DNA of 41,505 bases from an uncultured Planctomycetota bacterium (GTDB taxonomy: Bacteria > Planctomycetota > Planctomycetia > Pirellulales > Thermoguttaceae), in assembly GCA_902772705.1 (NCBI GenBank), contig CACYBR010000200.1, forward strand, positions 1-41,505, read 5' to 3'. The translations under genes were made by a program, and so were the position numbers. Of the stretch, positions 3,048 to 41,049 are shown piece after piece. How positions within the stretch are numbered: the first letter of the stretch is position 1; each line of letters begins with the position of its first letter. The notes under the pieces are model-generated. The model did no database searches. It saw nothing but the letters and a program-made list of their open reading frames with translations, and was not told the origin of the DNA.

Positions 3048-4319
3048 TTAACGGACGTTCAGCGCGTCATGTTCCTCCTTCGAGGAAGGGAGGGACGCGG
3101 TCGCGTTCTGTGCGACGACCTCCGTCACAATACGTTCAGCCAGTTCCTTTCGTCGCTCGTCAATGCGAGCGGCGTAGCGTTTGAACGATAGCTCAACGAC
3201 GTCGCGGACGTCATTGTAAATTTGACTTGCGTCAACGAAGGAAGTCGAGCGCTTTGCGAACTTAACAAGGTCGAGCGTCGTTAACGCGGACTCCATACGA
3301 GCGCGGATTTCAGGTTCCCTTAAGACGCTAACGGCAATATCCGCTTTTTCTGTTTCCGAGGGTTCCGTCGCGAGTTCGTCCACCGACGTTTGACAATCGA
3401 GCATGTTTGAATCGGAGATCGCGGAAAGAGCGTGTGCGTCGACAGACCTGAGAATTTCCTGCGTTGTTTTTTCCTGAGCGTTTATAGGAAACACGCCGGC
3501 GACATATTCCCTCAGAATAGAGTCGACGTCGGTATAGAACTGCGGCGTGTTTTCAAGATAGGTTCTCGAATTCTTCAGTTCGTTCAACCTTCTGATCGCC
3601 CTGTCGTAAGGCGATTCCGCCGAGCGTTCAGACACGGCGGAGTCAACGACGTTCTTTGGGAAAACAACCTTTCGGAACGCGAACGCCGCCGCGATAATCA
3701 CGAGAGCGACGACGACGATCGTCAGAATAGAAGTCTGGCGAATCGGTTCCAGGGTCGGCTTAATGTCGTCAATCGATTTCGGAGGAACGTCTGTTTCCGG
3801 AATCGAGAATATTTGTCGGGGTATCAGCACGACGACGGATTGAGCGTCTTCCGTTTCGCTTTCCGGAGGCGCCGTCACCGCGATGGGAATGGGCGGCGTC
3901 TCAAGATCGCCGCGTTTTTGAGGGTAAAGCCTCCAACTCCGCGTGACGACGTTTGACGCTTCGTCAAGGTTCCTTTCCTTATCTCCGAGGAATTCGACGT
4001 TGAAATCGCCGTAGACGCCGGCAAGGTCGTCCGGCGCCAGCGTCGCGTACTTTGGTTTTTGAATCTCGACGGTCAGAACGAACGGCTCGAAGGACGTCGC
4101 CATTTCAGGTTCGATTCTTTTTTTCACCGTGATCTGTCCCAGCCGGGTATCGACGCTTTGGACCGTTTGAAAGGATTCCTCGTTGTTTGTCTTGGCAGAA
4201 AAGGACGATTCGGCGAAAACGCAGAGTCCGAAGAGCGCCGCGAGTATCGACAAACAGCGAAGAAGCGCGTTTTCTGAACGTCGGCGCGCCGTCGAGCGAT
4301 TTTCGGTTCTAAACGTCAT
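3048..4319 (-). CDS. BatD-like single-pass membrane protein of the Bat/MoxR operon
   Basis: This 423-residue protein has a signal or anchor (about 22-38) and an extracytoplasmic beta-rich part (about 50-190) with the phrases EPFVLTVEIQKP and RSWRLYPQKRGDLETPPI, reminiscent of BatD oxygen-tolerance proteins. One clear membrane helix follows (about 198-217, TSILTIVVVALVIIAAAFAF), then a cytoplasmic tail of about 200 residues. The tail resembles the DUF4381-type tails found in this operon position, with phrases such as YDRAIRRLNELK and FYTDVDSILREYVAG. I cannot assign it firmly to BatD or DUF4381; it combines features of both. It sits between the DUF58 gene (48-base gap) and batA (40-base gap), which supports membership of the complex. 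The ribosome-binding site is weak. Confidence 0.75.
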   Translation of the reverse strand: MTFRTENRSTARRRSENALLRCLSILAALFGLCVFAESSFSAKTNNEESFQTVQSVDTRLGQITVKKRIEPEMATSFEPFVLTVEIQKPKYATLAPDDLAGVYGDFNVEFLGDKERNLDEASNVVTRSWRLYPQKRGDLETPPIPIAVTAPPESETEDAQSVVVLIPRQIFSIPETDVPPKSIDDIKPTLEPIRQTSILTIVVVALVIIAAAFAFRKVVFPKNVVDSAVSERSAESPYDRAIRRLNELKNSRTYLENTPQFYTDVDSILREYVAGVFPINAQEKTTQEILRSVDAHALSAISDSNMLDCQTSVDELATEPSETEKADIAVSVLREPEIRARMESALTTLDLVKFAKRSTSFVDASQIYNDVRDVVELSFKRYAARIDERRKELAERIVTEVVAQNATASLPSSKEEHDALNVR

Positions 4320-10470: not shown

Positions 10471-11418
10471 GTGGAAGGCTTTTCCTGGGTAGAGTGGATC
10501 GTTCTGGCGCTCTTGTCTCCTCTTGTCGGCTTTGTCGGGATGTTCTCGGGCGGTTTTTGGGGCGTTGGATGCGGGTGGCTGGTTGTTCCGTCGATGCTTG
10601 TCTTTTTTGACTGCACCCCCATGCAGGCGGCGGGCGTTGGACTCCTTCAAATGGCGCCGTCAATATTAGGACCCGTGATCAAAGAGGCTCCGAAAATAGG
10701 CTGGGGAAAGCCCTCGATAGGACGTAATCTCGTCATGCCAATGGCGCTTGGCGCGTTCGTTACGTCGTTTTGCGGACGGCCGATCAATATTTTCTTCAAT
10801 GAACTCTGTGGCAATAAAGCGATCTTTACCTTCTTTGGAATCTTTATGTTCGTCGTTGGATATCAGACGCTCTTTGGCAAGACGCGCAAGTACAACGATA
10901 CGAGTCCGATGAAGTTTACCAGAATGACGACGGTCTGGGCGTTAATAGGCGGGTTTGCGGCAGGCGTCTTCAGCTCCGTCCTTGGAGTAGGCGGCGCGAT
11001 GGTCTTCCGGCCAACGCTGGCGTCGGGATTTAAAACGTCCGAAGAGGATACGGCGCGTGCGACGCGCTTTCTGCTTTTGTCCACGACAATAACGGGAGGG
11101 GCGACGTATTTGCTCGCGTCGGACCAGGGAATTGACGCTAAAATACTCGTTTTGGCCGCCGCGATTGCCGTTGGCGGCGCGATTGGCTTTCCTCTTGGCG
11201 TCCAAGCCCATAACGTCGTTCTCAAAGCGGGTTACGCGAATATTGCTCAGCGGAGCTTTGCCGTTATCTGCGCTATCGTTATGATCAACGCCGCTTTTTC
11301 CGTGCTGGGATTGGAAGAGATAAGCCGCTATGTTATGTTTGGAGCGGCTGTTTTGCTGATGGCTTTTCTCCTTTTGTTCGTCTGGGTCGCCAAACGCCGT
11401 CTGAGAAATCCACTATGA
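10471..11418 (+). CDS. TauE/SafE-family anion exporter-like membrane protein
   Basis: This 315-residue protein has about eight or nine hydrophobic segments. The two family half-repeats are visible: LVGFVGMFSGGFWGVGCGWLVVPS in the first (about 18-40) and GGFAAGVFSSVLGVGGAMVFRP in the second (about 160-181), each a glycine-rich inverted-repeat motif of TauE/SafE transporters. The family exports sulfite, sulfoacetate or other organosulfur anions. Nothing around the gene reveals the substrate. The start is GTG 10471 with GGAG upstream. It is probably in one transcript with the CBS-domain gene. Confidence 0.87.
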   Translation: MEGFSWVEWIVLALLSPLVGFVGMFSGGFWGVGCGWLVVPSMLVFFDCTPMQAAGVGLLQMAPSILGPVIKEAPKIGWGKPSIGRNLVMPMALGAFVTSFCGRPINIFFNELCGNKAIFTFFGIFMFVVGYQTLFGKTRKYNDTSPMKFTRMTTVWALIGGFAAGVFSSVLGVGGAMVFRPTLASGFKTSEEDTARATRFLLLSTTITGGATYLLASDQGIDAKILVLAAAIAVGGAIGFPLGVQAHNVVLKAGYANIAQRSFAVICAIVMINAAFSVLGLEEISRYVMFGAAVLLMAFLLLFVWVAKRRLRNPL

Positions 11419-11860
11419 CGCAACCGCAGGGGAGCGGCGAACGTTTGATAGCGCCGTGTCGTTATTTGACTTTTTGAGAGGGCTGATTTTCCTGTCGGGC
11501 ATAAGGGAGAAAGGAATTTGTCTCCAGATTAACTAGGATTAACTCTTCCGTGTTTATTTTGTAACTTCAAGGACGGGACCCGTCAAACGTTTTATCGTTA
11601 TAACGGTTTATTTGACGTTGTCTCCACGCAATCTGCTCGATTCCTTTTTACGGCATTAGAACACGAAAAGCTTCATAAGCAGATTCAGCGTCCTTGAACG
11701 AACGCTTTCGAACGCGGATGACAGAGAAAGAGAATTTTTCGCAAATTGATCTTTCGGTTAAGAATGGTTGCGATAGCCAAGGCTTTTCTTTGCGTTATAT
11801 TGCTGTAAAGTCATCCGTTCTTCGAGTATTGGTTTGAATTTTGATTTTTAAAATTCGTTC
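11419..11860. other. gene-free stretch after the TauE-like gene
   Basis: I see no credible reading frame on either strand. It is AT-richer than the flanking genes. A possible -10 (TATATT, about 11806) has no convincing -35. It may be the long 3' untranslated region of the TauE transcript or the upstream part of the structured element that follows. Confidence 0.5.
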
Positions 11861-12005
11861 GTCCTGAGCGTCTCGACGCATGAGAGGCTCTTCTGAAATC
11901 AGAATTCCTGCGGTAACAGGCGTGGCGAAGGAAACGCTGACACAACCGCTCTAACTTCCCATTTGTCGTCAGGACATGTTGCCCTGATGACGTAATGGGT
12001 TTTCT
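11861..12005 (+). ncRNA. candidate structured RNA or attenuator ending in a terminator
   Basis: GTCCTGA (11861-11867) is perfectly complementary to TCAGGAC (11969-11975), enclosing several small hairpins: GCGT/ACGC with loop CTCG, TTCTG/CAGAA, CCTG/CAGG and GCGT/ACGC. The TCAGG arm is also the 5' arm of the terminator hairpin at 11958-11999. The two pairings exclude each other, as in riboswitches and attenuators. I do not recognise it as a known RNA class (no cobalamin, SRP, tmRNA or RNase P signature). No gene lies directly downstream, so an independent small RNA is equally possible. Confidence 0.4.
11958..12005 (+). terminator. rho-independent terminator
   Basis: A long slightly bulged stem: CCCATT...GTCAGG pairs with CCTGATGAC...AATGGG, followed by TTTTCT. 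It lies more than 500 bases beyond the nearest upstream gene, so it ends either a long 3' tail or a small RNA. Confidence 0.65.
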
Positions 12006-12070
12006 CTAAAGTAATTTACACATATATCCGGACTGGTCCGGGTTTAAAGCGTTTAAATTCGAGAGCTGTT

Positions 12071-12100
12071 TCTTCCGGAAGGAAGACTTTTTTCTTTTTT
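12071..12100 (+). terminator. rho-independent terminator
   Basis: A compact stem TCTTCC, loop GGAA, GGAAGA, then a T-rich run (CTTTTTTCTTTTTT). It ends 20 bases before the next promoter, insulating the downstream unit from read-through. Confidence 0.7.
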
Positions 12101-12120
12101 AACGATTTTTTTCATAAAAG

Positions 12121-12148
12121 TTGCAATGGCGTTTTTCAGACCTATAAT
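12121..12148 (+). promoter_or_regulatory. sigma-70-type promoter of leader copy A
   Basis: TTGCAA, 16 bases, then TATAAT (12143-12148). Predicted transcription start is near 12155, giving a leader of about 147 bases, nearly the same as in copy B. Confidence 0.65.
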
Positions 12149-12194
12149 GCTATTAGCAGGGTCGTCAGGCGTTATTCAGACAACTTTTGGGAAG

Positions 12195-12301
12195 GGATTT
12201 TCCCGGAGCTGGATTGGGTCTGCGATTCGTTGATTCCTAAGGATGGCGTATCGCCTCAGGGCGGTACTCGGCAGTAATGTTGAGAGTTAACGGGGGTTGC
12301 G
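12195..12301 (+). promoter_or_regulatory. conserved leader element, copy A
   Basis: The 79 bases before ATG 12302 match 68 of the 79 bases before ATG 14623, with no gaps. An 8-bp hairpin at 12248-12267 (GTATCGCC, loop TCAG, GGCGGTAC) is kept in both copies; two pairs differ but still pair (A-U to G-U, U-G to U-A). TCCCG at 12201-12205 can pair with CGGGG at 12291-12295, which overlaps the ribosome-binding site. I infer a cis-regulatory RNA controlling translation. It matches no riboswitch class I know. Confidence 0.6.
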
Positions 12302-12525
12302 ATGCTTGCTTTGCCAGTGGTCTCAGGGTTCATTTTGAGCCTTTTGTTTGCGGGCGCGTTGATTTTTTTCCGGATATTTTCATCTCTCTGCATGAAACGA
12401 CCTGGCGCGCCGTACGTATTTCTTCATGGTTTCCACCTGTTGTGGGAGCGGCGTTTTTGTACGCCGGCATTGTTGAAAACGATCGCGTATTGATTCGAGG
12501 CGCGAGGTCGTTATCAACACGATAG
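12302..12525 (+). pseudogene. probably frameshifted copy of the small two-TM protein
   Basis: The frame from ATG 12302 codes 63 residues (stop at 12488-12490). Its start, MLALPVVSGFILSLLFAG, aligns with the small protein at 14623 (MHSLPAIPGIVLFLLFAI) across the first membrane segment. The second membrane segment is not in this frame. It appears in the frame of ATG 12277 as FPPVVGAAFLYAGIV, similar to YVVGAFVSGLAFG of the protease at 15271, up to a stop at 12523-12525. A frameshift between about 12370 and 12430 would join the two. It could instead be a real 63-residue one-TM protein. GGGGG upstream of ATG 12302 is a usable ribosome-binding site. Confidence 0.45.
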
Positions 12526-12771
12526 CCGACCCGCGCGTTTGATTAATTCTCATGAGATAATCCGCCTTCGGGAGAACGAGCGTTTCCTGAGGTTAGCGCC
12601 GTCCAGACGAAACGGAAGAAGCGTTCTGAGACGTTCTTTAGTCGGCGGCGTTCCAGAGGGAAGCAGTCGCCGATGACGACCTGTATTCGAGCGCTTCTTT
12701 CGTCTGAAACGTTCCGGATTTTTATCGTACGAAATGATTCTTTTCGAACTCATTTTAAAGGAGTATTGGCA

Positions 12772-14301
12772 ATGAAGAAACCATTGATCTTCCTTTTAAG
12801 TTGTTTTGTCCTTTCGGCGACCATTGCGTGTCTCGTATGGTCGTTCAGGCATTTCCAGCCGCAGTTTAACAACGGCGCATCCTCCGAGGCGTCTTTCGAT
12901 CTTCCGGCAGAGCGTCCCATGCTTGCTTCCGACATGCAGAATTATGTCAGTCGTGAAGAAGTCGCGAAGATTCAGGAGGCGATCCAGAAGCTTAGCGACA
13001 ATAGTAAAGAAATTGCCCTGCGCTTCGGCATTCTTGCCGACGACGTCAGAATGTTGAAAGAGAAACAGATTGAGCCCAAACCAGAGCTTTTGGTTTTAAC
13101 GGGCGACAACGGCGTCTTGGCGGCGCCTCTTGACGCTTTCTCCGACAAGTCTGACGTCCTGGCGCCCAGTACCGCGTACTTCGCCAATGCTGCCGCCAGT
13201 TCCGAATCCCGGGAGTCGACGTCGTTCTCGGACCTTTCTCATACCAACGCGCTTCAAACGCCGCAGTCGGAGGACTCTGAAAATTTGGTCGAGCTTGCGT
13301 CGGCTCTTGAGCCTAAACTTGAAGAGCCTAAACTTGAAGCGCCCAATTGGGAGAAGATCCATGACGCCGTCTATGGAGGCGTTTTGTTGATTCGATGTGA
13401 AAGCTACGAATCGCCGAACGTCCATGAAGGAAAAAGAACCAATTATGGCTCTGGTTTTATTGTCAAACTCTTTGATCGATACTTCATTGTGACTGTCGAA
13501 CACTTGATTAGAGGGTTCCAACCTCACGAAATCACGATCAAGACTGTCAGAAAGAATCATATAACAAACTACGAGTATTTCGCTTGTTTTCCGTGGATTG
13601 ACACGGTTGTCTTCGAGATAAGTCGCGAAGAAATCGAAAAGTTTCCAGAAATAACCGTTTTCAAGCCCGGTGAAAGCGAGAAACTTGGGCTTTATGAAAA
13701 TATTATCGCGATCGGCAATCCTCCCGGTTTTCCGGGACATACGCTTATGGGTTCGGTAAGCAATAAGAACTTTTTCCTGGATAGCGACGATGAGCTTCCT
13801 TCCTGTCGTTATCTTGAGCTGAACGCCTCCTTGACCGCCGGAATGAGCGGAGGTCCAATTATCGACAGTCGGGGAAATGTCGTTTCGATGGTTAAGGCGA
13901 CGCTTGACAACTTTGTTCATAGGAACGGTTACGAGATCAGTTTCCCGATTGGCGTCTCTTACGGGATCAGAATGGAGGACATTGTCTCCGCGATAGCCAA
14001 TCGTATCAATAACAGCTCCTGGGGGTATACGCAACTGGGGGTCGAACTTAAGGACGTTCTCAACGAAACGTACGGAGTTTCTGGCGTGGCGGTGACCCGA
14101 GTCGTTCCTAATTCGCCGGCCGCCGCCGCTGGATTGCTCGAAGGCGATCAGATTGTACAATTCAAAGGGAAAAGCCCAACGGATTATCATGAACTGGAGT
14201 ATCTTATCGCGATATCTGAGCCCGGAGAAGCGCAAATCGAGCTCCTTCGCAGAGGAGAACCTATAACGAGGACCGTGAAGTTGACTTACTTGAAACAGTG
14301 A
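12772..14301 (+). CDS. membrane-anchored trypsin-like serine protease with C-terminal PDZ domain
   Basis: This 509-residue protein starts at ATG 12772, eight bases after AAAGGAG; a longer frame from 12673 lacks such a site. Residues 4-24 form a signal anchor. A coiled-coil-like segment follows (about 60-100, REEVAKIQEAIQKLSDN). A Ser/Thr-rich linker ends with the short repeat EPKLEEPKLEAP. The trypsin-like domain keeps all three catalytic sites: His in VTVEHLIRG, Asp in WIDTVVFEIS and Ser in GMSGGP. A PDZ domain at the end contains VVPNSPAAAAGLLEGDQIV. It resembles HtrA/Deg proteases, acting outside the inner membrane. The usual TNxHV around the histidine is VEHL here. It lies between two small two-TM genes with related leaders. 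Confidence 0.88.
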   Translation: MKKPLIFLLSCFVLSATIACLVWSFRHFQPQFNNGASSEASFDLPAERPMLASDMQNYVSREEVAKIQEAIQKLSDNSKEIALRFGILADDVRMLKEKQIEPKPELLVLTGDNGVLAAPLDAFSDKSDVLAPSTAYFANAAASSESRESTSFSDLSHTNALQTPQSEDSENLVELASALEPKLEEPKLEAPNWEKIHDAVYGGVLLIRCESYESPNVHEGKRTNYGSGFIVKLFDRYFIVTVEHLIRGFQPHEITIKTVRKNHITNYEYFACFPWIDTVVFEISREEIEKFPEITVFKPGESEKLGLYENIIAIGNPPGFPGHTLMGSVSNKNFFLDSDDELPSCRYLELNASLTAGMSGGPIIDSRGNVVSMVKATLDNFVHRNGYEISFPIGVSYGIRMEDIVSAIANRINNSSWGYTQLGVELKDVLNETYGVSGVAVTRVVPNSPAAAAGLLEGDQIVQFKGKSPTDYHELEYLIAISEPGEAQIELLRRGEPITRTVKLTYLKQ

Positions 14302-14437
14302 ATCGGCTTCGCTGGGTCGCGGCGTTTTAATGACCGTTAGTTTTTGTTCGAGTTCACGGGCCGATTATTTGAAGATCGACCATAAAACGACTTAGTAGAG
14401 AATTTTCCGGATATAACATTTTTTTCTTGAAATAATG

Positions 14438-14466
14438 TTGTATCGGTTTCTCTTTGGAGGTATAAT
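14438..14466 (+). promoter_or_regulatory. sigma-70-type promoter of leader copy B
   Basis: TTGTAT, 17 bases, then TATAAT (14461-14466). Distance from the -10 to the start codon is almost the same as in copy A, so promoter and leader appear to have been duplicated together. Confidence 0.6.
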
Positions 14467-14513
14467 CCCGAAGCAAACGAATCGTCAGACGTCGGTAAAG
14501 CGACGTCGGGGAT

Positions 14514-14622
14514 ACGGATTTTTCCCGGGGTGGATTTCACCCACGATTCGTTGACGACTAAGGATGGCGTGTCGCCTCAGGGCGATACTCGGCAATTATG
14601 TTGAGAATTAACGGGGCTTGTA
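14514..14622 (+). promoter_or_regulatory. conserved leader element, copy B
   Basis: This is the second copy of the leader block. The hairpin GTGTCGCC, loop TCAG, GGCGATAC lies at 14569-14588. A further hairpin GGGTG/CACCC (14527-14541) is seen only here. TCCCG (14523-14527) can pair with CGGGG (14612-14616) at the ribosome-binding site, as in copy A. Confidence 0.6.
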
Positions 14623-15054
14623 ATGCACTCTTTACCAGCGATCCCAGGAATAGTCTTGTTTCTCTTGTTTGCGATCTGCGCGTGTGGATTTCTATCGAAC
14701 CTTTCTAAGTATCGAAGGCTGGTCGCGTCGCGAACTCTTTGCGCGTCGCGGGCGCGCAGGCGCGTCCGCGTTCGACTCTGCGTTTGTTTTGTCGGCGTTT
14801 TGCTGTTTGGCGGAAGCTTTGTTTTCGCCATGATGAATCCCGTGGCGTCATCCTTTGCGGCTCAAAAGCCGCAGGGGGACGTCGTCGAGTCTGAAACTCA
14901 GACTGAGGGTTTCCGTTTTATGACAGTTAACGCGTCGACCTCAGAATCGTCCGCCGCGACGACGTCCTCTTCCGAAGAGTCGACCGGTTCTTCAGAGACG
15001 CGTGGTTACGTTTCATTTATGCCTTTAATTCCCGCTCGAGTTTCTGATTTCTGA
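14623..15054 (+). CDS. small two-TM protein with Ser/Thr/Glu-rich exported tail
   Basis: This 143-residue protein has a first membrane segment at about 6-24, then a very basic loop (YRRLVASRTLCASRARRR), a second membrane segment at about 49-68 (VCFVGVLLFGGSFVFAMM) and a low-complexity tail rich in Ser, Thr and Glu. The positive-inside rule puts the loop in the cytoplasm and the tail outside. I recognise no family. Its N-terminal plan recurs at the start of the protease encoded at 15271 and, broken, at 12302. A weak hairpin terminator lies 30 bases downstream. A role as partner or sensor for the neighbouring proteases is a guess from context. Confidence 0.65.
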   Translation: MHSLPAIPGIVLFLLFAICACGFLSNLSKYRRLVASRTLCASRARRRVRVRLCVCFVGVLLFGGSFVFAMMNPVASSFAAQKPQGDVVESETQTEGFRFMTVNASTSESSAATTSSSEESTGSSETRGYVSFMPLIPARVSDF

Positions 15055-15081
15055 CGTTCCTGCTCGCCAGAACGAGCGAAG

Positions 15082-15100
15082 CGCTCTGAAAGAGCGTTTT
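15082..15100 (+). terminator. weak terminator-like hairpin
   Basis: CGCTCT, loop GAA, AGAGCG, then TTTT. The stem is short, so read-through into the downstream protease gene is likely. Confidence 0.35.
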
Positions 15101-15119
15101 CCGGCGTGTCGTTTTCCAC

Positions 15120-15148
15120 TTGACTAGGAACGTCTTTTTGGGTAGGGT
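15120..15148 (+). promoter_or_regulatory. possible sigma-70 promoter for the second protease gene
   Basis: TTGACT, 17 bases, then TAGGGT. The -10 is poor. It would give a leader of about 115 bases. Confidence 0.35.
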
Positions 15149-15219
15149 GCTCCGAACGGTTACGGCTGTTCATTGATAAAAGTTGAAAGAGGGCGTGAGG
15201 CAAGCTATGCCTTTCGACT

Positions 15220-15270
15220 CTGGAATCCAGCGTCATGGTCGACGCTGGAAAAGCGCTAGCGGAGGGTTTC
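15220..15270 (+). promoter_or_regulatory. leader hairpin before the second protease
   Basis: CCAGCGTC (15227-15234) pairs perfectly with GACGCTGG (15241-15248) around a 6-base loop. A competing hairpin, CTGG (15220-15223) with CCAG (15227-15230), uses the same arm. The ribosome-binding site GGAGG is at 15261-15265. An in-frame ATG at 15235 lies inside the loop and is unlikely to be the start. Confidence 0.45.
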
Positions 15271-17190
15271 ATGTCTTATTCGAGTATCAATTCGGTCTTG
15301 AGCGTGCTTTCGACGATTTCAGGACATGATTCTGAGAGCGTTTTAGCCGTTTTACATTTCGCGCTTGCGTCTGCGTGCATGATCGTTGCGGTTTCTGTTG
15401 GCAGACCACGACGACTCCCTGAGACGTCTTCTTTGAATGTTTCAAAATCGAGCGTGAGTCTGCTTTTTTATGTTGTCGGAGCGTTTGTTTCCGGTCTGGC
15501 GTTCGGCGCGACGTATTCCGGCGGTTCGACTGGGAAAGCGGGGGCTGATTCAGTCGTCGCCGACAACGTTAACATTATTAGCGGCGCGTCTTTTGAGAAC
15601 GCCGCAACCACGAGGGTCGTTTACGCTCCTAACGAGCGCGAAGGGATCAGAGTCACGCAAACCGCCTATACGGTTCCCGGAGGTTTTTCTGAAAGCAGAG
15701 CGTATGGACCGGACTCCTCGGCCGCGCCGAAGGCTCTTTTTGTCGCACCCGTTAAGGACGAGACGACGATTCCCGCGCCGTTGAAGGCGCCGACGTCCGA
15801 AGAAGTTGCGCCGACGCCCCTTTCGTCGGCGAACGTCGCTCACGACGAGCTCGCCAACTCGCGCCTTTCTGCGTCTAATAGAAGCGCCGCCTCGCGCGCA
15901 TATGGTCCGGAACCCAACGTTGACTCTTCGAGCGTCGCCGTTCCCGTTATGACGTCGGAGCACGAGCCAGACTTTTCATCAGACGTTTTGAAAGCGTTTC
16001 AACCGGAAAACGCGTTGTTGCCGCGGTGTTTTGCCGGCGCCAATGCGGCGAACCCGATTAGTTCGACCGGATTTGCCTCGTCTCGCGCCGTAACGTCAGG
16101 CGCGACTCAGATCGGCGTTTCCGAACTGAGCGGCGGCGAGCCGCGCGATAATTCTCTGTTGACCAGATTGGACGAAGAAAAAGCGAGAGTCAGCAGAGAG
16201 GTGCGCCCCGCTGTTCTGACCATAAACGCTAAAAGAATCGTCGCCGGCAAACCGGAAGAAACCCATGGCAGCGGTTTTGCCGTGCAGTACAAGGGTCGGA
16301 TTGTCGTCGTTACGAACAGTCATGTAATCGAAGGCGCCGAAAGTTGCCGTGATATCGCGATTTCAACCTACGACGGCCAGACTTTTTCACCGATCAGAGT
16401 TTTACCTTGCGAGGACTTTGATATTGCCGCGCTTGAGATTGATCTCCAGACGGTCGCGAGCCTTTCCAGTCTTCGTCTTTGTCGTCTCGCGAACAGTAGC
16501 GAACTGGAAGCCGGGTTTGGCGTCTTCACGATCGGCGCGCCCCTTTTCATGGACTGGACTATGACTTATTGTCATGTCGGCAAGGTTTACAGGAACACCG
16601 CGGAACTTAAGGAAGCGCGTATCATCAAGGAGACTTCTGAAAACGGCGACAAGGATCTGGTTCGCTATATTCAGATCAGCGGCATCATTCTTGAGGGGAA
16701 CTCAGGCGGACCGCTTTTTAACGCGTGCGGCGACGTCGTCGGTATCGTGACCGCCACGATCCAGAAGGACTCTACCGCAACGGGCATCGGATTTGCGATT
16801 CCGATAGAAGACGCGCTTAGCGTCGTTCGTAATATGGTCGATTCCGGCGCGTGGCGCCGCTCCTATCTTGGAGTCGTGCTCGACGGTTCGCGTTCCAGCG
16901 AATACGTTCTTGAGCACGGCGTTGGTCTGAGCGAGGTCAAACAGAACTCACCCGCCGAACTTGCCGGCGTCAGGGTCGGGGATCACGTCCGAACGTTCAA
17001 CGGCGAACGCGTCAGGAATAAGTTTGACCTTGCGCGCATGATCGCACTGACGAAGCCGGGCGAGAAGGGGAGCATGGAAATTGTGCGAGACGGCCGCCCC
17101 ATCACGATCACATTCTCCACTTGTTCCGGCGTGAGCACAGTCGACGCTAAAACGAACTCCAGACAGAACGGGACGACCATTCGTCGCTGA
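15271..17190 (+). CDS. trypsin-like serine protease with two-TM N-terminus and C-terminal PDZ domain
   Basis: This 639-residue protein starts at ATG 15271 (GGAGG six bases upstream). Residues about 20-44 and 62-82 are membrane segments separated by a loop with RPRRL, the same plan as the small protein at 14623. A Ser/Ala/Pro-rich linker of roughly 220 residues follows. The trypsin-like domain has the full triad: His in VTNSHVIEG, Asp in DFDIAALEID and Ser in LEGNSGGP. The PDZ domain carries VKQNSPAELAGVRVGDHV. It belongs to the HtrA/Deg type with the protease on the outer side of the membrane. Two linker segments (ESRAYGPDSSA and ASRAYGPEPN) repeat a RAYGP motif. It is the second such protease within 5 kb, but the two differ widely outside the catalytic and PDZ parts. 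Confidence 0.88.
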   Translation: MSYSSINSVLSVLSTISGHDSESVLAVLHFALASACMIVAVSVGRPRRLPETSSLNVSKSSVSLLFYVVGAFVSGLAFGATYSGGSTGKAGADSVVADNVNIISGASFENAATTRVVYAPNEREGIRVTQTAYTVPGGFSESRAYGPDSSAAPKALFVAPVKDETTIPAPLKAPTSEEVAPTPLSSANVAHDELANSRLSASNRSAASRAYGPEPNVDSSSVAVPVMTSEHEPDFSSDVLKAFQPENALLPRCFAGANAANPISSTGFASSRAVTSGATQIGVSELSGGEPRDNSLLTRLDEEKARVSREVRPAVLTINAKRIVAGKPEETHGSGFAVQYKGRIVVVTNSHVIEGAESCRDIAISTYDGQTFSPIRVLPCEDFDIAALEIDLQTVASLSSLRLCRLANSSELEAGFGVFTIGAPLFMDWTMTYCHVGKVYRNTAELKEARIIKETSENGDKDLVRYIQISGIILEGNSGGPLFNACGDVVGIVTATIQKDSTATGIGFAIPIEDALSVVRNMVDSGAWRRSYLGVVLDGSRSSEYVLEHGVGLSEVKQNSPAELAGVRVGDHVRTFNGERVRNKFDLARMIALTKPGEKGSMEIVRDGRPITITFSTCSGVSTVDAKTNSRQNGTTIRR

Positions 17191-17282
17191 GCGCGCTCCG
17201 CAGGGCGTCGGACACTATAATCGGACGCTTTTGACGGCGCATGACGAGGAAGAACCAGAGCGAACGGTCGATGGGAGCTGGG

Positions 17283-18074
17283 ATGGAACTGACGTCGTTT
17301 TTTACGCTTCGCCTTTTTCTTCTGACCTTTGCAAGGTGCGCAGGCACGGTATGGTTCGCGCCCGTATTTGGCGGCGTTGAGATTTCACGCCTCAATAAAT
17401 TGACCTGCGCTCTTCTACTTTCGTTCCTTGTCTTTCCATCCGTCGCGGCGGGAAGCGATCCTTCCGTCTCCCGCGCGTTCGTTTTTAACGCGGGTAATTG
17501 CGTTCTACTCGCACTTTCTCTGTCATTCGAGCTCTTGCTCGGGGCGGGGACGGGATTATTCCTGAAAATATTTTTTCAGGGCGTCTATTTGGCAGGCGAG
17601 ACGATTTCACGAATAGGAGGCGTTTCGGTCGCGGAAAGCTTCGATCCTTCGTTGGGGGGCGAGACGACCGCTCCCGCTTCTTTTCTGTTTTGGGCTATGC
17701 TTGCGACGTTTGTCGCTTGCGGCGGTTTCGAGGCGTTTCTGGACGGCTTTCTTCATTACTTCTCGGTCGTGGCGCCGGGCGCCGGCCTATCCCCGTCCGA
17801 ACTTGTCGTTAATCTTACGGGCGCGTTATCGAGCGCATTCGTTCTCGGACTTCGTCTTAGCGCTCCCGTGATTATCGCGACAGCTCTTGTTTATTTATGC
17901 GTTGGAATGAGCGGACGTCTTTTCTCTCAACTGAATCTTTACGCGATTAGCTTTAACGTCAACGCAATCCTGACGCTTGTCCTTCTTTTCCTTTGCATTG
18001 GTGTTTTTTGTCAGGTTTTTCAATCGGAGCTCGCGTCCGTCGTAGAAAAGTTCTTTGGCGCGCGGGTCGCTTGA
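17283..18074 (+). CDS. fliR: FliR/SctT-family export apparatus protein
   Basis: This 263-residue protein has about six membrane segments and matches the FliR pattern: an Arg-containing TFARCAGTVWFAPVFGG start, GTGLFLKIFFQGVYLAGETISRIGG with the Phe/Gln-AGE-G core, a FDPSLGG segment, LFWAMLATFVACGGFEAFLDGF, and a late VGMSGRLFSQLNLYAISFNV. FliR and its type III relatives (SctT) form the export gate with FliP and FliQ at the inner membrane. I chose ATG 17283 (GGGAG upstream); ATG 17241 would add 14 charged residues. The 263-residue length equals that of usual FliR. No other flagellar or type III secretion gene is in the window, so it is isolated here. Confidence 0.87.
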   Translation: MELTSFFTLRLFLLTFARCAGTVWFAPVFGGVEISRLNKLTCALLLSFLVFPSVAAGSDPSVSRAFVFNAGNCVLLALSLSFELLLGAGTGLFLKIFFQGVYLAGETISRIGGVSVAESFDPSLGGETTAPASFLFWAMLATFVACGGFEAFLDGFLHYFSVVAPGAGLSPSELVVNLTGALSSAFVLGLRLSAPVIIATALVYLCVGMSGRLFSQLNLYAISFNVNAILTLVLLFLCIGVFCQVFQSELASVVEKFFGARVA

Positions 18075-19419: not shown

Positions 19420-22400
19420 ATGGGTAAGAATAAGAAAAAAGGGAGCAAGAACAGAGGCGGTCTTGGCGAAGGCTTCGAAGAATCTTACGAGTATGAAGTC
19501 GACGGCGACGAGGACTATGGCAGATCGCAGAAGAACAAATTCAGGAATCGTTCTCGGGGCTACGACGGCTACGGCGCGGACGGCGGCTACAGCGAGGAAT
19601 ATGAAGACGATTCGAACTATGACGCCGACGACGAAGACGACGCTTACGACGGCCAGAATTACTATGGCGACGAGGAAGACGCTTCTTCGAACGCCGGGTC
19701 GCAGTATAGCGTTTCGTCTGATTCAAACTTTTCCGGCGTCGGAGTGAATTCGTCTTCATTATCCGGGCAAGCGAACAGCGGATTTAAAGAGAACAAACCG
19801 TCGCCGTTGGGCTCGCTTCATCGCGCGACGCCGACTCCGTACGATACCGGGTCCGAGAAGAGTCGTACGGGAACGACGAGCGCTTATACGAGCGGAGTGT
19901 CGTTTCGACCTGTCAAGGCGGTCGCGGAGCCTCAGACGAGCGCAAAATCGCAATCCGGTAGGGCGTATGACGCCAGCGTCTCTCAAGGGGGCGTTTCGGA
20001 CGACGTGGAAGACGAGTCTGGGACCGAGGAAGTGGAGTCCCGACGTGAACGCAAGGCGCGTGAGAAGAGCGCGAGACAGGCAGAGAAGGAATCTCGCCGG
20101 GTAGAAATTGAAGATCTCAGAAGACGCGTCGCCGATCTTGACGAGAAGATTCATGAATACTGCCAGCTTCGCGACGATGAAAGCTCCTCTCAGGAAGATC
20201 GAGATTCGTGCGAGGAGAAGATCTCGGAGCTCAACGCGGAGAAGGAGAGTCTTCAGGGACAGTTGCGAGAACTGGGAGTAGGGCGCTTGTCTTCTCTTCT
20301 GTCAGGTATTAACCTCTCGGTTGCGACGTCGTCAGTCAAGGCGGCGAGTAAGAAAATAACGAATTCCTTCGCGGCTTTGGGACGGCGTAAAGAGGACGAG
20401 GCTGAAGACGCGGAAGAGGACGGCAAGAAATCGTCGAAAGCCGAGCGAGACGAGGAACGTCTTATCGCGCGTCAGGAACGTCGTGAACGGAAGAAGGCGC
20501 GCCGCGAGGAGAAGAAACGTTCTCGTTTGGGCAGAGGTTTCGCGGAGAATTCCGACGATTCCGGTCTGAATCATGACGAGGAGGACGGCGACGAACCGAG
20601 TTCGAGCAAAATCGATTGGACTCGCATCGGGGTTCAAACGGCTAAGGTTACGGTTATTGCCTCGATATTGCTCGTAGCAGGGTACACAGGGTATATGTTC
20701 CTTGGCCCCAACCGTCCTGCGACGGAGGGCGATAACGTTGCTTCTGTTCAAGGGAAGGAGGATGGAAAGGGGGAGAGTTCTGACTCCGCCAAATCGTGGT
20801 TGAGCGGACTTAAGAGCAAGTTCCAATCCAATAAGGAAGGCTCGTCGAACGATTCGAAAAAGACGGCGTCTTCAGCCCCCGCGTCTTCGCCTGCCAAAGA
20901 AGGCGCTTCAGACGACGAAAAGGGCGAAAAGAAGGGGTGGTGGAACAGGCTTGTCAGCAAGTTCAGAAAGGGCGAATCGTCGGACGACGCCAAGAGTGGC
21001 GAAAAGCTGGAGAGCAAGCTCGCAAAAGCTGAGAAAGACGCTTCTGATTTGTCTCAAAAGACAAAGGACGGCGTCAAGAGTAAGCTTGATGAGTTTAATC
21101 AATCCCTGATGGAGCAGACGGATTCCCTTAAGAACGACCTTGAAGAAGGGATTTCAGTTGCGTCTCAAAAAGCGAACGAGCTTGGCGAACGTCTTTCGGG
21201 CGCGTTCAGCGACGCTTCTGACGAACTGAGCCGCAACGCGAGCGGACTTGAAGACGATCTCTCCGGGCTCGTGGACTCCGGAAACGAAGCGCTTGGAAAT
21301 TTGAACGATTCGCTTCAAGACGTCGGGGACGAGCTTGCCGGCGCGGCTTCGAACGCGAAGGACTCTCTCAACGCTTCCGTTAATGAGCTTGGAAACAATC
21401 TTGACGACGCCGTTTCCAACGCAGTTGCAGATTTTGACGCCGAGAAAGGAACGCATGGCGATTTGACGGACAACGACGCGTCGACGACCGCGACGGTCGC
21501 GGCGTCTTACGGCGACGATTCTTTGCTTGACAGCGACGAGCTGGAGACGGTTGACGTTGATCCTGCCGAAGCTGATTTCAACTTTGGAAATACGCCGGTA
21601 AGGAATCCATCGACGAACGCCTCAACGCTTGAGTTAGACGTTCCTGACGAGCAGGTTGGCGAGGTCGCCGCCTCGATAGATCCTTTACCGACGGACGAAG
21701 ACGCGCTGACGACGGTCGCGCCGTCCGTCCAGGATGAAACGGACGCGACTTCCGGCGCCGATTGGGGCGCCGCCGAATCTTCGGAGCCCAGTTTGGCCGT
21801 CGAATCCGTTTTAAACAGTAGAGCGACGGAACCAGTTGACGACGGCGCAGGTTTAACCTTTGCCGAGGACGAGCTTACCGCCGACGCGTCTGTTCCGACC
21901 GAGAGCGCGACGAATGTTCCGCAGCCGACGTCACAGCCCTCTGGGAACGCGTCGTCTCTGGCGGGGTTGTCGAACGCCGGTTCCTTGAATGCAAACGCTG
22001 TTAACGATAATTCTTTGAACGCAGGAGCTACGCAAGAGACTCCGAGTCTGTTAAATCCTCGAACAACGGCTTCGAGCGATTCGGGGATGGATTTGCAGGT
22101 TGGAGGGACTTCTAACGCTGTTCTGGAACTGAACGACGATTCTGACATGAACGCTCTCAGCGGCGCGAACAACGTGGTCGCAGACGATTTTGATTCATGG
22201 AATTCCAGTCCCTCTCTGTTGAATTCTCAGAGGACCTCCAACGCTGGAAACCAGCTGTCTGAGTCTTTGAACAGTCTGAATTCTCAGGTCGATAATTTGG
22301 CCGGTAAAGTTGCCGACGCTTCGCAGAATTTCCAAGCGGGAATTCAGGAACATGTCGATTCGTTCAACGAAGGCGTGTCAAGTCTTAGAGAAAGGGGAGA

Positions 22401-23700
22401 ACAGGCGTCGGAAGCCTTGAATAATTCGCTTTCAACCGTGTCGAATTCACTTGAACAAGCACGAGATTCGCTCAGAGAGGGCTATGACAATCTGTCCAAT
22501 TCCCTGGGCAGCGCTTATCAGTCTGCGGCGGATTCGATTCAGAACGTGGGCGATAATATCAACAACAATTTCCAGAAGCTTCAGGATTCTTTCACGAATC
22601 TCAATGAGCTCGGCGCTCCGAGTAATAACGCGAATGGTTTGACAACCACGTCTCCTCTGGCGAGTTCCGGGACGCCGAACAACTCGCTCGCTGGCGCGGC
22701 CAATAGCAGTTTGGCGGCGAACGGTGGGAGTAGTTTGGCGGCGACCGGAAGCAGTTTGGCGGCGAACGGAAACAGTTTGGCGGCGAACGGTGGGAGTAGT
22801 TTGGCGGCGAACGGGGGAAGCAGTTTGGCGGCAAACGGAAACAGTTTGGCGGCAAACGGGGGACAGAGAGCGGCTACGAACGCCTCGCCGCTGACGTCTA
22901 CGCCGGTCGCGAACGGCGCGAATTCGTTGACGAACGCGCAGACGAACGGCGTTCCGACCAGCAGTAACGCGGCGACCTCGACGCCTTCGGCGCTACAAGC
23001 TCCGTCGAATACGACAATGACAAATTCGTTGGTTCAAACGCCGTTGAATTCTGGAACCGGCTCTAACGTTGCCAATACCGGAGGCAATAACGCATTGTCT
23101 AACAACAGGGTTCCGGCCAATAATGGCGGTATGGTCAACGGATTGGCGACGCCAGTCAATTCTGCCAATAGCGCCGTCGCGAACGTGTCGCCGTCGAGTT
23201 CAGACGCAGGCGATCTCATGCCTTCGGCAGTGGATTATTCGTATTCCATGTCGCCTCTTGGCCAATTGAGTTCACGCGACAGGATAGACGCCTCGATGCT
23301 TGCAACTCCGAACGCGTCAACAGTTTCCGGTTCGGCGTCTCCCACGACGGTCGTTGCGTCGAACAACGTTCCCCTCGGAACAGCTTCGACGGGAGCGGCG
23401 CCTTCGGGCGTTTCCCAGTACGTTTTAGCGAATCAAAACGCGCCGGCCAACCAGAGCCTCTCTCCCAATATGGTTCAGCAGGGCGCCGCGCCAGGCGTGG
23501 CGACAGGGGTCGCGTCCGGCTATCGTCAGTATGTGACGAAGGAAGGAGACAACCTTTTGACAATCGCGGAAAATGAGCTTGGCAGCAGTTCCCGGTGGGG
23601 CGAAATTAAACGGCTCAACAATCTGCGTTCTGGCGCCGCGTATTTCGAAGTCGGAACGATGTTGCTTCTGCCGGCGACAGGCGCGACTCCCGGAAATTGA
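19420..23700 (+). CDS. giant low-complexity membrane protein with C-terminal LysM domain
   Basis: This 1426-residue protein has in order: an acidic Tyr/Asp/Gly-rich N-terminus (1-100); a Lys/Glu/Arg-rich coiled-coil-like part (about 205-285 and 320-375); one membrane helix (about 411-431, KVTVIASILLVAGYTGYMFL); a first amphipathic helical part with repeats like LSQKTKDGVKSKLDEFNQ (about 540-680); an acidic linker; a second helical part of the same kind (about 935-1065); an Asn/Ser/Ala-rich stretch with seven SLAANG-type repeats (about 1096-1150); and a LysM domain at the very end (YVTKEGDNLLTIAENEL, then NNLRSGAAYFEVGTMLLLP). The LysM should bind peptidoglycan or another glycan outside while the N-terminus stays in the cytoplasm, so the protein may span the envelope. 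It takes the place of ftsL after rsmH, with AGGGGG before its ATG. The exact function is unknown. Confidence 0.85.
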   Translation: MGKNKKKGSKNRGGLGEGFEESYEYEVDGDEDYGRSQKNKFRNRSRGYDGYGADGGYSEEYEDDSNYDADDEDDAYDGQNYYGDEEDASSNAGSQYSVSSDSNFSGVGVNSSSLSGQANSGFKENKPSPLGSLHRATPTPYDTGSEKSRTGTTSAYTSGVSFRPVKAVAEPQTSAKSQSGRAYDASVSQGGVSDDVEDESGTEEVESRRERKAREKSARQAEKESRRVEIEDLRRRVADLDEKIHEYCQLRDDESSSQEDRDSCEEKISELNAEKESLQGQLRELGVGRLSSLLSGINLSVATSSVKAASKKITNSFAALGRRKEDEAEDAEEDGKKSSKAERDEERLIARQERRERKKARREEKKRSRLGRGFAENSDDSGLNHDEEDGDEPSSSKIDWTRIGVQTAKVTVIASILLVAGYTGYMFLGPNRPATEGDNVASVQGKEDGKGESSDSAKSWLSGLKSKFQSNKEGSSNDSKKTASSAPASSPAKEGASDDEKGEKKGWWNRLVSKFRKGESSDDAKSGEKLESKLAKAEKDASDLSQKTKDGVKSKLDEFNQSLMEQTDSLKNDLEEGISVASQKANELGERLSGAFSDASDELSRNASGLEDDLSGLVDSGNEALGNLNDSLQDVGDELAGAASNAKDSLNASVNELGNNLDDAVSNAVADFDAEKGTHGDLTDNDASTTATVAASYGDDSLLDSDELETVDVDPAEADFNFGNTPVRNPSTNASTLELDVPDEQVGEVAASIDPLPTDEDALTTVAPSVQDETDATSGADWGAAESSEPSLAVESVLNSRATEPVDDGAGLTFAEDELTADASVPTESATNVPQPTSQPSGNASSLAGLSNAGSLNANAVNDNSLNAGATQETPSLLNPRTTASSDSGMDLQVGGTSNAVLELNDDSDMNALSGANNVVADDFDSWNSSPSLLNSQRTSNAGNQLSESLNSLNSQVDNLAGKVADASQNFQAGIQEHVDSFNEGVSSLRERGEQASEALNNSLSTVSNSLEQARDSLREGYDNLSNSLGSAYQSAADSIQNVGDNINNNFQKLQDSFTNLNELGAPSNNANGLTTTSPLASSGTPNNSLAGAANSSLAANGGSSLAATGSSLAANGNSLAANGGSSLAANGGSSLAANGNSLAANGGQRAATNASPLTSTPVANGANSLTNAQTNGVPTSSNAATSTPSALQAPSNTTMTNSLVQTPLNSGTGSNVANTGGNNALSNNRVPANNGGMVNGLATPVNSANSAVANVSPSSSDAGDLMPSAVDYSYSMSPLGQLSSRDRIDASMLATPNASTVSGSASPTTVVASNNVPLGTASTGAAPSGVSQYVLANQNAPANQSLSPNMVQQGAAPGVATGVASGYRQYVTKEGDNLLTIAENELGSSSRWGEIKRLNNLRSGAAYFEVGTMLLLPATGATPGN
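22711..22863 (+). repeat. in-frame tandem repeats coding SLAANG units
   Basis: Seven imperfect units of about 18-24 bases, most containing AGTTTGGCGGCGAACGG, code SSLAANGG, SSLAATG, SSLAANG, NSLAANGG, SSLAANGG, SSLAANG and NSLAANGG. Near-identity at DNA level suggests recent expansion and likely length variation between strains. Confidence 0.9.
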
Positions 23701-31887: not shown

Positions 31888-33390
31888 CTATTTCACAATC
31901 GATTCTGAGGGCGTCTCGGAAATAAATTCTGGCATGTCGGCCTTTCTAACCTGTTTCCAGTTGCTGGTCCACTCTCCCTGTTTATCCAGGGAGGAAGAAG
32001 ATTTGGTCAACTCCTCTTTTCCTGCATTCTCCTTCTTGACCGGTTTCCAGACAAACTCCTGACGTTCTTCAATCTCCACGTGAACGCCTGCGTCTTGCGT
32101 TCCCTGGCGTTCACGTTCGTTCGAAAGTTTTTCCATTTCGACGTCGTCCTCGGACGCTTCTGGACGGACGTTCGTATTGGTTTTGGCCTTAGGAGTTTTT
32201 CCCGTCTCTAGGGGCGTTGGTTCCAGACCTTCTGTCGCTTGGGGGATTCCCCGGTTTGTGGGCGCAATTCTTGCAGGCGAATTCAACTTGCTCTGGAGAG
32301 AATCCGGAATAGCGGCCGACGAATCCGGCGCAGAATATTCTCCCTTTTTGACAACCATTCCCGTCATTGGGAGTAAGAGTTTTTGACGTCCTCCGTCCTC
32401 GTCATGAAGACTGGTGACGATTTCGATCTCTCCAGCGACAGGTCCGACGTTTTCGTCGGCGTTGAATTCGATTTGGATAACGTGTACGGAACGTTTTAAA
32501 TCCGTCTTTGCGCCGGAAACTCTCCTGTCGTTGGATTTTACTTCAAGAATTTTGAACGGTTCCGAACCAGAGACGACGACGTTTCGCGTGATTCCCTTGT
32601 CTTGTTCGATAACGCCCAGTTGAAGGAAGGACGGTTTGGCGCTAAGCGGTTCGACGACAAGTCCCTGAATAGGCAGGAAAACGGTCGAGGTTGCCGGATC
32701 CGGCTCGTTTGTTCGTAGTTTCAAAAGATCGTGCAGATAGCCGGGCGACGCTTCCGATTTAAGTTCAACGAGGATTTCATAGACGACGCTGCCTCCCTGA
32801 CGACGAACTTCGCGCGCTTCTGCTCGAATACCGGGATTATTCTTCTGAATATCCGTTAGCGCCCAGCCTGCTCGCCCCTCGTATTGAAGGAAAGCCTTCT
32901 TCACGCTCTTGACGCCGTGCTGGACGGTTCCAAATTCAATTACGCCGGGATCAAAGCCAATATCGGGGCGGATGTAGGTCTTGACTTGAAGTTGAACTTC
33001 CGCTGTTGTTGGCTTGCTAAAGACGACACGGATCGTCGCCTTACGCTGCTTCGTATGTTCACGCCCGGAGGTGTCGACTCTCGCAATGACTTCTCCAATC
33101 TCGCCCGGATGAACGACCTGCTTGCTCACCGACGCTTTGGTGCATCCGCAGTTGGACGAGACCGACGCGATGACAACGTCTTCATTGTAGATGTTCTTAA
33201 ACTGGAACCTCTTCTCAACGTCGGCATGCAACGCGACGCTTCCAAAGTTATGCAGACGTTCCGTACCCATCTCGCTGAACATTTTAACGGCCCACTGGCT
33301 TGTCTGGGCAAAGAGTGGCGAGACGTTTGACAGGAGTAAAACGGCTACAAACGCAGCCGAAAACATCTTCATGTGATTGATTTTCCTCAT
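31888..33390 (-). CDS. DUF1573 exported protein
   Basis: This 500-residue protein has a signal peptide (residues 1 to about 29, ending SPLFAQ) and a DUF1573 domain at about 40-135 with the hallmark IASVSSNCGCTKASVSK followed by PGEIGEVIARVDTS. Further beta-rich immunoglobulin-like segments extend to about 340, with a low-complexity charged tail after that. DUF1573 proteins are secreted and frequent in planctomycetes; the Cys-x-Cys pair may bind metal or form a disulfide. The function is unknown. Its own ribosome-binding site (AAGGAG) is good, and it forms a one-gene unit with a strong terminator. Confidence 0.87.
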   Translation of the reverse strand: MRKINHMKMFSAAFVAVLLLSNVSPLFAQTSQWAVKMFSEMGTERLHNFGSVALHADVEKRFQFKNIYNEDVVIASVSSNCGCTKASVSKQVVHPGEIGEVIARVDTSGREHTKQRKATIRVVFSKPTTAEVQLQVKTYIRPDIGFDPGVIEFGTVQHGVKSVKKAFLQYEGRAGWALTDIQKNNPGIRAEAREVRRQGGSVVYEILVELKSEASPGYLHDLLKLRTNEPDPATSTVFLPIQGLVVEPLSAKPSFLQLGVIEQDKGITRNVVVSGSEPFKILEVKSNDRRVSGAKTDLKRSVHVIQIEFNADENVGPVAGEIEIVTSLHDEDGGRQKLLLPMTGMVVKKGEYSAPDSSAAIPDSLQSKLNSPARIAPTNRGIPQATEGLEPTPLETGKTPKAKTNTNVRPEASEDDVEMEKLSNERERQGTQDAGVHVEIEERQEFVWKPVKKENAGKEELTKSSSSLDKQGEWTSNWKQVRKADMPEFISETPSESIVK

Positions 33391-39556: not shown

Positions 39557-39633
39557 AGTTATGTCTGTTTTGATATCGGGGTACTGGAAATCGCTAAACG
39601 ACAAACGTTAGGTTTTGGCTGGAACTGATAAGG

Positions 39634-41049
39634 TCAATCGTGGACGGAGTCAGCGCGTCGACCTTTGGGAATAAACGCACGAAGCGTTAAGATAAAGACA
39701 GGGAGCGTTATGAGAGCGCAAACAAACCAAATGTTGGCGCCATTAAGCCCTGTTTTGACCACTTCTTCGGAACCGGTTGCAATTCTCGTTTCTCCGATAG
39801 GCGCGGATGCGAGCGCCATCTGGACGATAGCGGCGAGCGCCATGGCGGTAAAGGAAAAGAAATTGTATGCAGCGAGAATACGACCTCGGCTTTCTTGAGG
39901 ACTGTCCATCTGGAGCGTGGCGACGAGCGGAATGTCGTACATGCCCGCCGAAAGCCCCATGAGAAACAGGACGGCGGCGCCAAAGACGAAACCAAACGAA
40001 GCGGGAGACGCCGCTTTCATTCCTGCAGGAATGGATTCGTAAGGCGTGAAGCCGAGAATCAAGCAGAACAACATGATCAGAAACGCTCCAATTGGAACGA
40101 GCTTGAGATCAATCTTGCCGCGGGAAAGCCTGCCGGGAAGCAGTGCGCCGAGCGCGAGTCCCGCAGAGAGCGCGACGAGAAGCGCCATCGCCCAGTCCTG
40201 ACGAACGTTGAGGTACTCCGTCGCGTACTTGTCAATATTAATCTGGGCGAGCGCGCCAAGTCCCCAGAAAAAGGAACTTGCCATCGCGATCCAGAAGAGG
40301 CGCCTGTGCTTAATGAGAGATCCCAGATCCTTGATTGTCTGTTCAAACGGATTGATAGGGAATTTTGCTTTCGGATCCGCCGCGTCAATTGAGGGAATGA
40401 AAAAGCTGGAGATCAGACCGAGAATTGAAACGCCAATAATGACGGCAGACCAAAGGAACCAGCCGTTCATTCCCCCTGTGCCTTCTGAGGGCGCTTCGGG
40501 ATGAAGCGTCGTCAAAACGAAGAGAACGCCGCCGAGCACCTGGCCGCCAAGGCAGGCGACCATTGTCGTCATTGAGACGTAGCCGTTTGCGTCAGAGATT
40601 CGTTCAGCCGGAACGAGATTCGGGAGGCTCCCGTATTTTGCGGGACTGAAGAACGCGCTCTGCGACGCCATTAAAAAGAGGGTGAGCAACATGAAAGGAA
40701 CAGATTGGGAAACGATTGCGATCGTCCCAAGAATCATGATGATCAATTCTGCGACCTTACACCAGATAAGAACGTGACGGCGGTTGTAACGGTCGCATAC
40801 GAAGCCGGCATACGTCGCAAGCAGGAGGAACGGAACCAAAAACGCAAGGGAACCGATTGTACGAATCGCGTCCTGCTTGTCGCTCCAACCAATGGCGCAT
40901 TTGCCAATCGGGATGATCAGCCAACGAAAGATATTGTCGTTCAACGCCACCATAAACTGGGTAATCAGCAGTGCGATAAATCCCTTTGTCCAGAGTGGAG
41001 GGAGAGAGGGTTTCGTTGAGGAAACAGGAGGTTGGGATGTGGCTTGCAT
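39634..41049 (-). CDS. lplT: LplT-like lysophospholipid transporter (MFS)
   Basis: This is a 471-residue MFS protein with about twelve membrane segments. The family signature is clear: ALNDNIFRWLIIPI near the N-terminus, the MFS loop motif AGFVCDRYNRRHVLI and FFSPAKYGSLPNLVPAERI. LplT flips lysophosphatidylethanolamine across the inner membrane for re-acylation by Aas, whose gene follows. Members are normally about 400 residues; this one has extra residues between helices 6 and 7 (around DAADPKAKFPINPFEQTIKD). ATG 41049 has only a weak ribosome-binding site. Confidence 0.9.
   Translation of the reverse strand: MQATSQPPVSSTKPSLPPLWTKGFIALLITQFMVALNDNIFRWLIIPIGKCAIGWSDKQDAIRTIGSLAFLVPFLLLATYAGFVCDRYNRRHVLIWCKVAELIIMILGTIAIVSQSVPFMLLTLFLMASQSAFFSPAKYGSLPNLVPAERISDANGYVSMTTMVACLGGQVLGGVLFVLTTLHPEAPSEGTGGMNGWFLWSAVIIGVSILGLISSFFIPSIDAADPKAKFPINPFEQTIKDLGSLIKHRRLFWIAMASSFFWGLGALAQINIDKYATEYLNVRQDWAMALLVALSAGLALGALLPGRLSRGKIDLKLVPIGAFLIMLFCLILGFTPYESIPAGMKAASPASFGFVFGAAVLFLMGLSAGMYDIPLVATLQMDSPQESRGRILAAYNFFSFTAMALAAIVQMALASAPIGETRIATGSEEVVKTGLNGANIWFVCALITLPVFILTLRAFIPKGRRADSVHD

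Follow-up and report, generated by a model that had tools for sequence, protein, structure and literature searches.

An orphan leader, probably under constraint, in a tandemly duplicated protease unit of an uncultured Planctomycetota bacterium

The window analyzed here, a stretch of 41,505 nucleotides from an uncultured Planctomycetota bacterium, holds a real orphan leader in a duplicated protease unit, and comparison of its two copies indicates that this leader is probably constrained. The leader repeat is part of a tandem duplication of a larger unit (promoter, leader, small membrane ORF, and HtrA-like protease), and the tandem protease duplication is a point that the initial annotation had missed. 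The leader, known from this genome only, probably serves to switch protein production, perhaps via the regulator CsrA.

A duplicated unit between the TauE and fliR genes

The two units, A and B, comprise the following features.

12121..12148, forward strand: sigma-70-like promoter, copy A (TTGCAA, 16 nt, TATAAT at 12143-12148; scan, 10/12 match)
14438..14466, forward strand: promoter-like site, copy B (TTGTAT, 17 nt, TATAAT at 14461-14466; sequence reading)
12198..12352, forward strand: duplicated segment, copy A (5' leader part, core, and first 17 codons; BLASTN)
14520..14673, forward strand: duplicated segment, copy B (BLASTN)
12237..12295, forward strand: conserved leader core A, 92% identical to core B (region-wise identity)
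14558..14616, forward strand: conserved leader core B (region-wise identity)
12302..12493, forward strand: small ORF A, 63 aa, one TM-like segment
14623..15054, forward strand: small ORF B, 143 aa, TM, basic stretch, TM, and Ser-rich linker
12772..14301, forward strand: HtrA-like protease A (Trypsin_2 and PDZ), the fast-evolving copy
15271..17190, forward strand: HtrA-like protease B (Trypsin_2 and PDZ), adjoining fliR

Promoter, leader, small ORF, and protease follow each other in the same order and at similar spacing in both units. A -35/TATAAT promoter had been claimed at a similar distance before each leader; this holds for the TATAAT -10 boxes, which lie 154 (A) and 157 nt (B) upstream of the ATGs, and for the -35 element of copy A, but the -35 element of copy B is weak (TTGTAT matches at 3/6 positions by eye, and the promoter scan raised no flag there). 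The predicted transcription starts lie near 12155 (A) and 14472 (B).

The duplicated unit sits between the TauE and fliR genes, a position that is syntenic in congeners, where the gene order is CNNM, TauE, a single such protease, fliR, and mraW (neighbors were assigned by ORF position and N-terminal sequence, and fliR was confirmed separately). Searching five congeners for TauE gave no match, a negative that does not amount to absence of the gene. In the tree, proteases A and B form a sister pair (83/85 support), with A on a long branch. Since they share only 28% identity, the unit was either duplicated long ago or has evolved very fast; among the sampled genomes, the duplication is lineage-specific. 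A second congener (L066, G014:C158) also has two tandem proteases before fliR, whose leaders are mutually dissimilar and whose extra protease groups apart from protease A.

The genes after the leaders resemble those of HtrA/DegP-like S1 proteases with PDZ domains in encoding Trypsin_2 and PDZ, yet their N-terminus extends into a long TM module and linker, and one module of this kind is a separate ORF (14623-15054). No family match was found for small ORF A or B. The topology of ORF B is that of the N-terminal module of the congener proteases, minus the protease domain, and we infer from its sequence that it is such a module encoded separately. The description of A and B as two related small-protein genes stands for their first 17 codons (9/17 aa identical, E 0.004, with eight non-synonymous and three synonymous codon changes) and fails beyond codon 17.

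Elsewhere in the window, two adjacent minus-strand genes (37193-39604 and 39634-41049) match separately the two halves, acyltransferase/ligase and MFS, of NF006386, a fused acyl-[ACP]--phospholipid O-acyltransferase, both below the cut-off. A 1426-aa protein encoded directly after mraW (19420-23700) has only weak apolipoprotein or coiled-coil-like matches, and a minus-strand gene (31888-33390) partially matches the OS_HP2 family (seleno)protein model below its cut-off.

Uneven conservation and predicted structure of the leader

We recovered the ungapped 68/79 match first noted before ATG 12302 and ATG 14623: positions 12223-12301 and 14544-14622 are identical at 68/79, and the second-best placement anywhere in the window reaches 37/79. 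With BLASTN (within 11301-17300) the match widens to 12198-12352 and 14520-14673 (155 bp, 77%, E = 7.6e-29). The 59-nt core is 92% identical, compared with 72% for the 5' part, 69% for the first 17 codons, and 61% for the stretch between the -10 box and the leader; identity tapers along the 155-bp segment with no sharp edge, and little is alignable beyond the first 17 codons. The core differs at 5/59 positions, the 5' part at 10/36, and the first 17 codons at 16/51 (p = 0.0007), which bears out the view that the leader is better conserved than the coding sequence behind it and argues that the core is probably constrained. Such uneven identity would be expected from an old duplication with a constrained core, unlike a uniform recent copy.

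A conserved core between diverged flanks, together with 28% protease identity, suggests either constraint or some local copying at a later date. The copying explanation would require no regulation: a short segment would have passed from one unit to the other, by copying or gene conversion, in the fairly recent past, and the identity would reflect no more than recent shared ancestry. The initial annotation had proposed that similarity confined to one locus would mean a recent duplication, and the similarity is indeed found at this locus only; the segment is also short (155 bp), and constraint is read from two copies with no independent third sequence. Against this, the divergence of the proteases, the contrast between the core and its sides, the fading of identity without a sharp stop, and the order and similar spacing kept by both units, as an old duplication would leave them, make us regard recent copying of the segment as unlikely. 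Recent conversion of the core alone, or other local copying, is a possible source of the high leader identity.

The core also contains a short upstream ORF in each copy.

12243..12290, forward strand: 15-codon upstream ORF A (MAYRLRAVLGSNVES), start inside AAGGATG
14564..14611, forward strand: 15-codon upstream ORF B (MACRLRAILGNYVEN)

We rejected a coding role for the core: although the frame is open in A and B alike, each of the five codons that differ is non-synonymous (5/5), and thus there is no sign of peptide conservation.

Folding of the leaders predicts two tandem hairpins and a possible closing helix.

12248..12267, forward strand: P2 hairpin A, 8 bp, loop UCAG (pair probabilities 0.84-0.94)
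14569..14588, forward strand: P2 hairpin B, 8 bp, loop UCAG (pair probabilities 0.74-1.0)
12268..12283, forward strand: P3 hairpin A, directly after P2, 5-6 bp, copy differences in the loop (fold)
14589..14604, forward strand: P3 hairpin B (fold)
12228..12292, forward strand: possible closing helix P1 A, 12228-12233 with 12287-12292 (two-copy consensus fold)
14549..14613, forward strand: possible closing helix P1 B, 14549-14554 with 14608-14613 (the same positions can pair)

In the ensemble predictions for the full leaders, the pairs of P2 and P3 are highly probable in both copies. P1 reaches a probability of only 0.3-0.44 in full leader A and of 0 in full leader B. The arms of P2 are GTATCGCC-TCAG-GGCGGTAC in copy A and GTGTCGCC-TCAG-GGCGATAC in copy B, with the common form GTRTCGCC-UCAG-GGCGRTAC. 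As initially described, the hairpin stays paired in both copies despite its differences, but the two changes (A-U to G-U and U-G to U-A) are one-sided wobble changes, neither of them compensatory, and two paralogous copies from one genome offer no independent covariation. Under the three-helix model, nine of the 11 leader differences fall at unpaired positions and two keep pairing (p = 0.05, post hoc). The two-copy consensus energy lies below that of 92-96% of simulated mutants (same substitutions, random placement), and the folds score modestly (z = -1.1 to -2.1). Structural support is modest. The CUAAGGAUGGC stretch is a predicted single-stranded junction that is invariant between the copies.

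The proposed pairing of a TCCCG with the ribosome-binding site (RBS) was not borne out, as it has probability 0 in the ensembles of both full leaders. The predicted mean unpaired probability of the RBS at 25, 37, and 50 °C is 0.31, 0.38, and 0.40 in leader A and 0.25, 0.32, and 0.42 in leader B; neither shows the clear step between 25 and 50 °C that melting of an RNA thermometer would give.

These predictions bear on an alternative in which a P2/P3 element, with or without P1, senses a ligand, protein, or temperature and controls RBS access with no part for CsrA. We consider it possible though doubtful. The robustness of P2/P3 in both copies, the consensus fold relative to randomly mutated copies, the invariant single-stranded junction, and the lack of an Rfam match would all suit such an element; the modest z-scores and the small effect of warming on predicted RBS access speak against it, as does the lack of any match in 119 family genomes, including congeners with the same gene neighborhood, whereas known riboswitch classes recur widely.

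The P2 sequence could also be read at the DNA level, with the inverted repeat GTRTCGCC-TCAG-GGCGRTAC and its surroundings binding a transcription factor downstream of the promoter. In each copy, one half site is a perfect GTATCGCC and the other has a single mismatch, which would suit an operator. This reading is very unlikely: ~95-115 nt downstream of where transcription is predicted to start, the repeat is distant for an operator, and conservation is not limited to the palindrome but takes in P3, the junction, and the rest of the 59-nt core.

Searches for further copies and the leaders of congener proteases

The leaders hold the position of a cis-regulatory element, like the cis-regulatory families of Rfam 15, but unlike these they match no family, neither above the gathering threshold nor at E <= 5; the initial annotation likewise recognized no riboswitch class with this sequence. 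A covariance model built from the two copies (R1) recovered only these two among 60 relatives, 119 family genomes, and 20 genus genomes, and, with filters off, no further copy at seven congener loci; weak matches (bits <= 22) were at chance level. We found no third leader copy in the bacterium's own genome, no match to one degenerate pattern across the GTDB species representatives, no leader copy in the phage and plasmid collections, and no relative in a related-locus search with a FliR-type protein. Three pattern matches in the viral collection were not matched by R1. The check that the initial annotation had suggested, a covariance model run on relatives and compared with Rfam, thus yielded neither a third copy nor a family. 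The searched set comprises many incomplete genomes and no metagenomes, and in the nearest congener by FliR (G012) the contig ends at fliR, which places the leader region outside the readable sequence.

The leaders of the syntenic protease in congeners have no sequence similarity to the window leader. Four of them (L064, L067, L068, and L074) resemble it in preceding the same gene before fliR, in being long and structured, and, in three, in carrying AAGGAY; they differ in having a distinct arm with its own compensatory changes and in placing AAGGAY near -24 and not at -63. This common arm is of the type GGCGC-GAR-GGCC-AAGAA-GGCC-GAAAAA-GCGYC. Across the four species, three of its pairs are changed on both sides and all counted cells are paired, a result from four related sequences that 21/500 shuffles reach. 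In three of the four, a hairpin of the CUUC[AAGGAY]GAAG type follows the arm. A weak match to the arm also occurs in L126 (G003:C383, minus strand, ~4020-4123) before a gene for a different, apparently secreted protein, and is followed by an 8-bp hairpin, CUUUUC[AAGGAU]GAAAAG. Matches of a model of the arm (R2) in G012 and G006 were discarded: both are one and the same sequence, which lies within long ORFs of a different gene, and so they are not leaders.

CsrA as a candidate regulator of the leader

Control of the leader by CsrA is our preferred reading and the most likely single mechanism, although we put it forward tentatively, and the leader is a candidate target on the strength of the following sites.

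12239..12245, forward strand: candidate CsrA site A, AAGGATG, -63 from ATG
14560..14566, forward strand: candidate CsrA site B, AAGGATG, -63 from ATG

CsrA sites typically present GGA in a hexaloop and have the SELEX consensus RUACARGGAUGU (PMC7652899), the core of which, ARGGAUG, is contained in the CUAAGGAUGGC junction. Both AAGGATG at -63 and an ANGGA at -109, the latter in weak hairpins, lie at identical distances in the two copies. The genome encodes three CsrA genes above the Pfam cut-off (contigs C230, C248, and C282), all of which retain the RNA-binding residue Arg44, and each of the 20 genus genomes has 2-7 CsrA genes. The system thereby resembles those controlled by CsrA/RsmA (glgC, iraD, and B. 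subtilis hag), both in the GGA sites of a long 5' leader before the RBS and in the several CsrA genes of the genome. As in iraD, the candidate site overlaps the start of a short upstream ORF (PMC5574718), but here that ORF stops before the downstream start and does not overlap it.

In this reading, a unit of promoter, ~150-nt leader, membrane-module ORF, and HtrA-like protease was tandem-duplicated in this lineage, and the 59-nt core present in both copies would be a constrained cis-acting element for translation of the downstream ORF. CsrA would bind single-stranded GGA sites, chiefly AAGGAUG at -63 and possibly ANGGA at -109, with the rigid tandem hairpins P2 and P3 placed between the -63 site and the G-rich RBS. 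Bound CsrA would then block initiation, perhaps by way of the 15-codon upstream ORF that the site overlaps, much as in E. coli iraD, or may instead change RBS access. Of this scheme, the analysis establishes the duplication, the uneven conservation, the P2/P3 prediction, the GGA motifs, and the CsrA genes; we infer the transcription start, the function of the RNA, CsrA binding, and the direction of regulation.

The window sites depart from known CsrA/RsmA leaders in several respects. The AAGGAUG is without the ACA that precedes this motif in the SELEX consensus, at most 2 bp (<=2) surround its hexaloop and form no proper hairpin, and in copy B it is unpaired with a probability of only 0.42. 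The RBS of the small ORFs is CGGGG(G), with no GGA, and a CsrA site overlapping the Shine-Dalgarno sequence, which is common but not obligatory (cf. iraD, PMC5574718), is therefore absent. In the two window leaders alone, GGA occurs in loops five times versus 2.8 expected, which is no clear enrichment. AAGGATG is found in three of eight roughly independent leaders versus 0.07 expected, for a motif chosen after seeing the data, and AAGGA is also Shine-Dalgarno-like. The missing hairpin at the window site, the RBS without GGA, and the post hoc motif are the reasons for our caution about this candidate.

Several of the congener leaders carry CsrA-type hexaloop hairpins: L067 and L068 have CUUC[AAGGAY]GAAG, L074 has a variant of it with a G-U pair, and L070 has GGAG[AAGGAU]UUCC. 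Hairpins of this type are rare, with 19 occurrences in 505 kb of strand. Across 12 leaders, three of the twelve being close relatives, GGA lies in hairpin loops 21 times versus 11.1 expected (3/1000 shuffles). A broader scenario, which we think rather improbable, combines these observations: a lineage-restricted structured leader (AAGGAUG junction with P2/P3) would control the membrane-module and protease genes by fliR, as one instance of genus-wide CsrA-binding leaders whose sequences were replaced between species.

A limited literature search found no described CsrA target in this bacterial group. Should the leader prove to be a CsrA target, the reach of this regulator would come to include, in genomes that carry several CsrA paralogues, a membrane protease of HtrA type with a link to fliR, a flagellar/type III export gene; as an element of some other kind, it would be an orphan leader worth probing. 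The case amounts to a footprint between paralogues, in which non-coding sequence was retained while the duplicated genes diverged.
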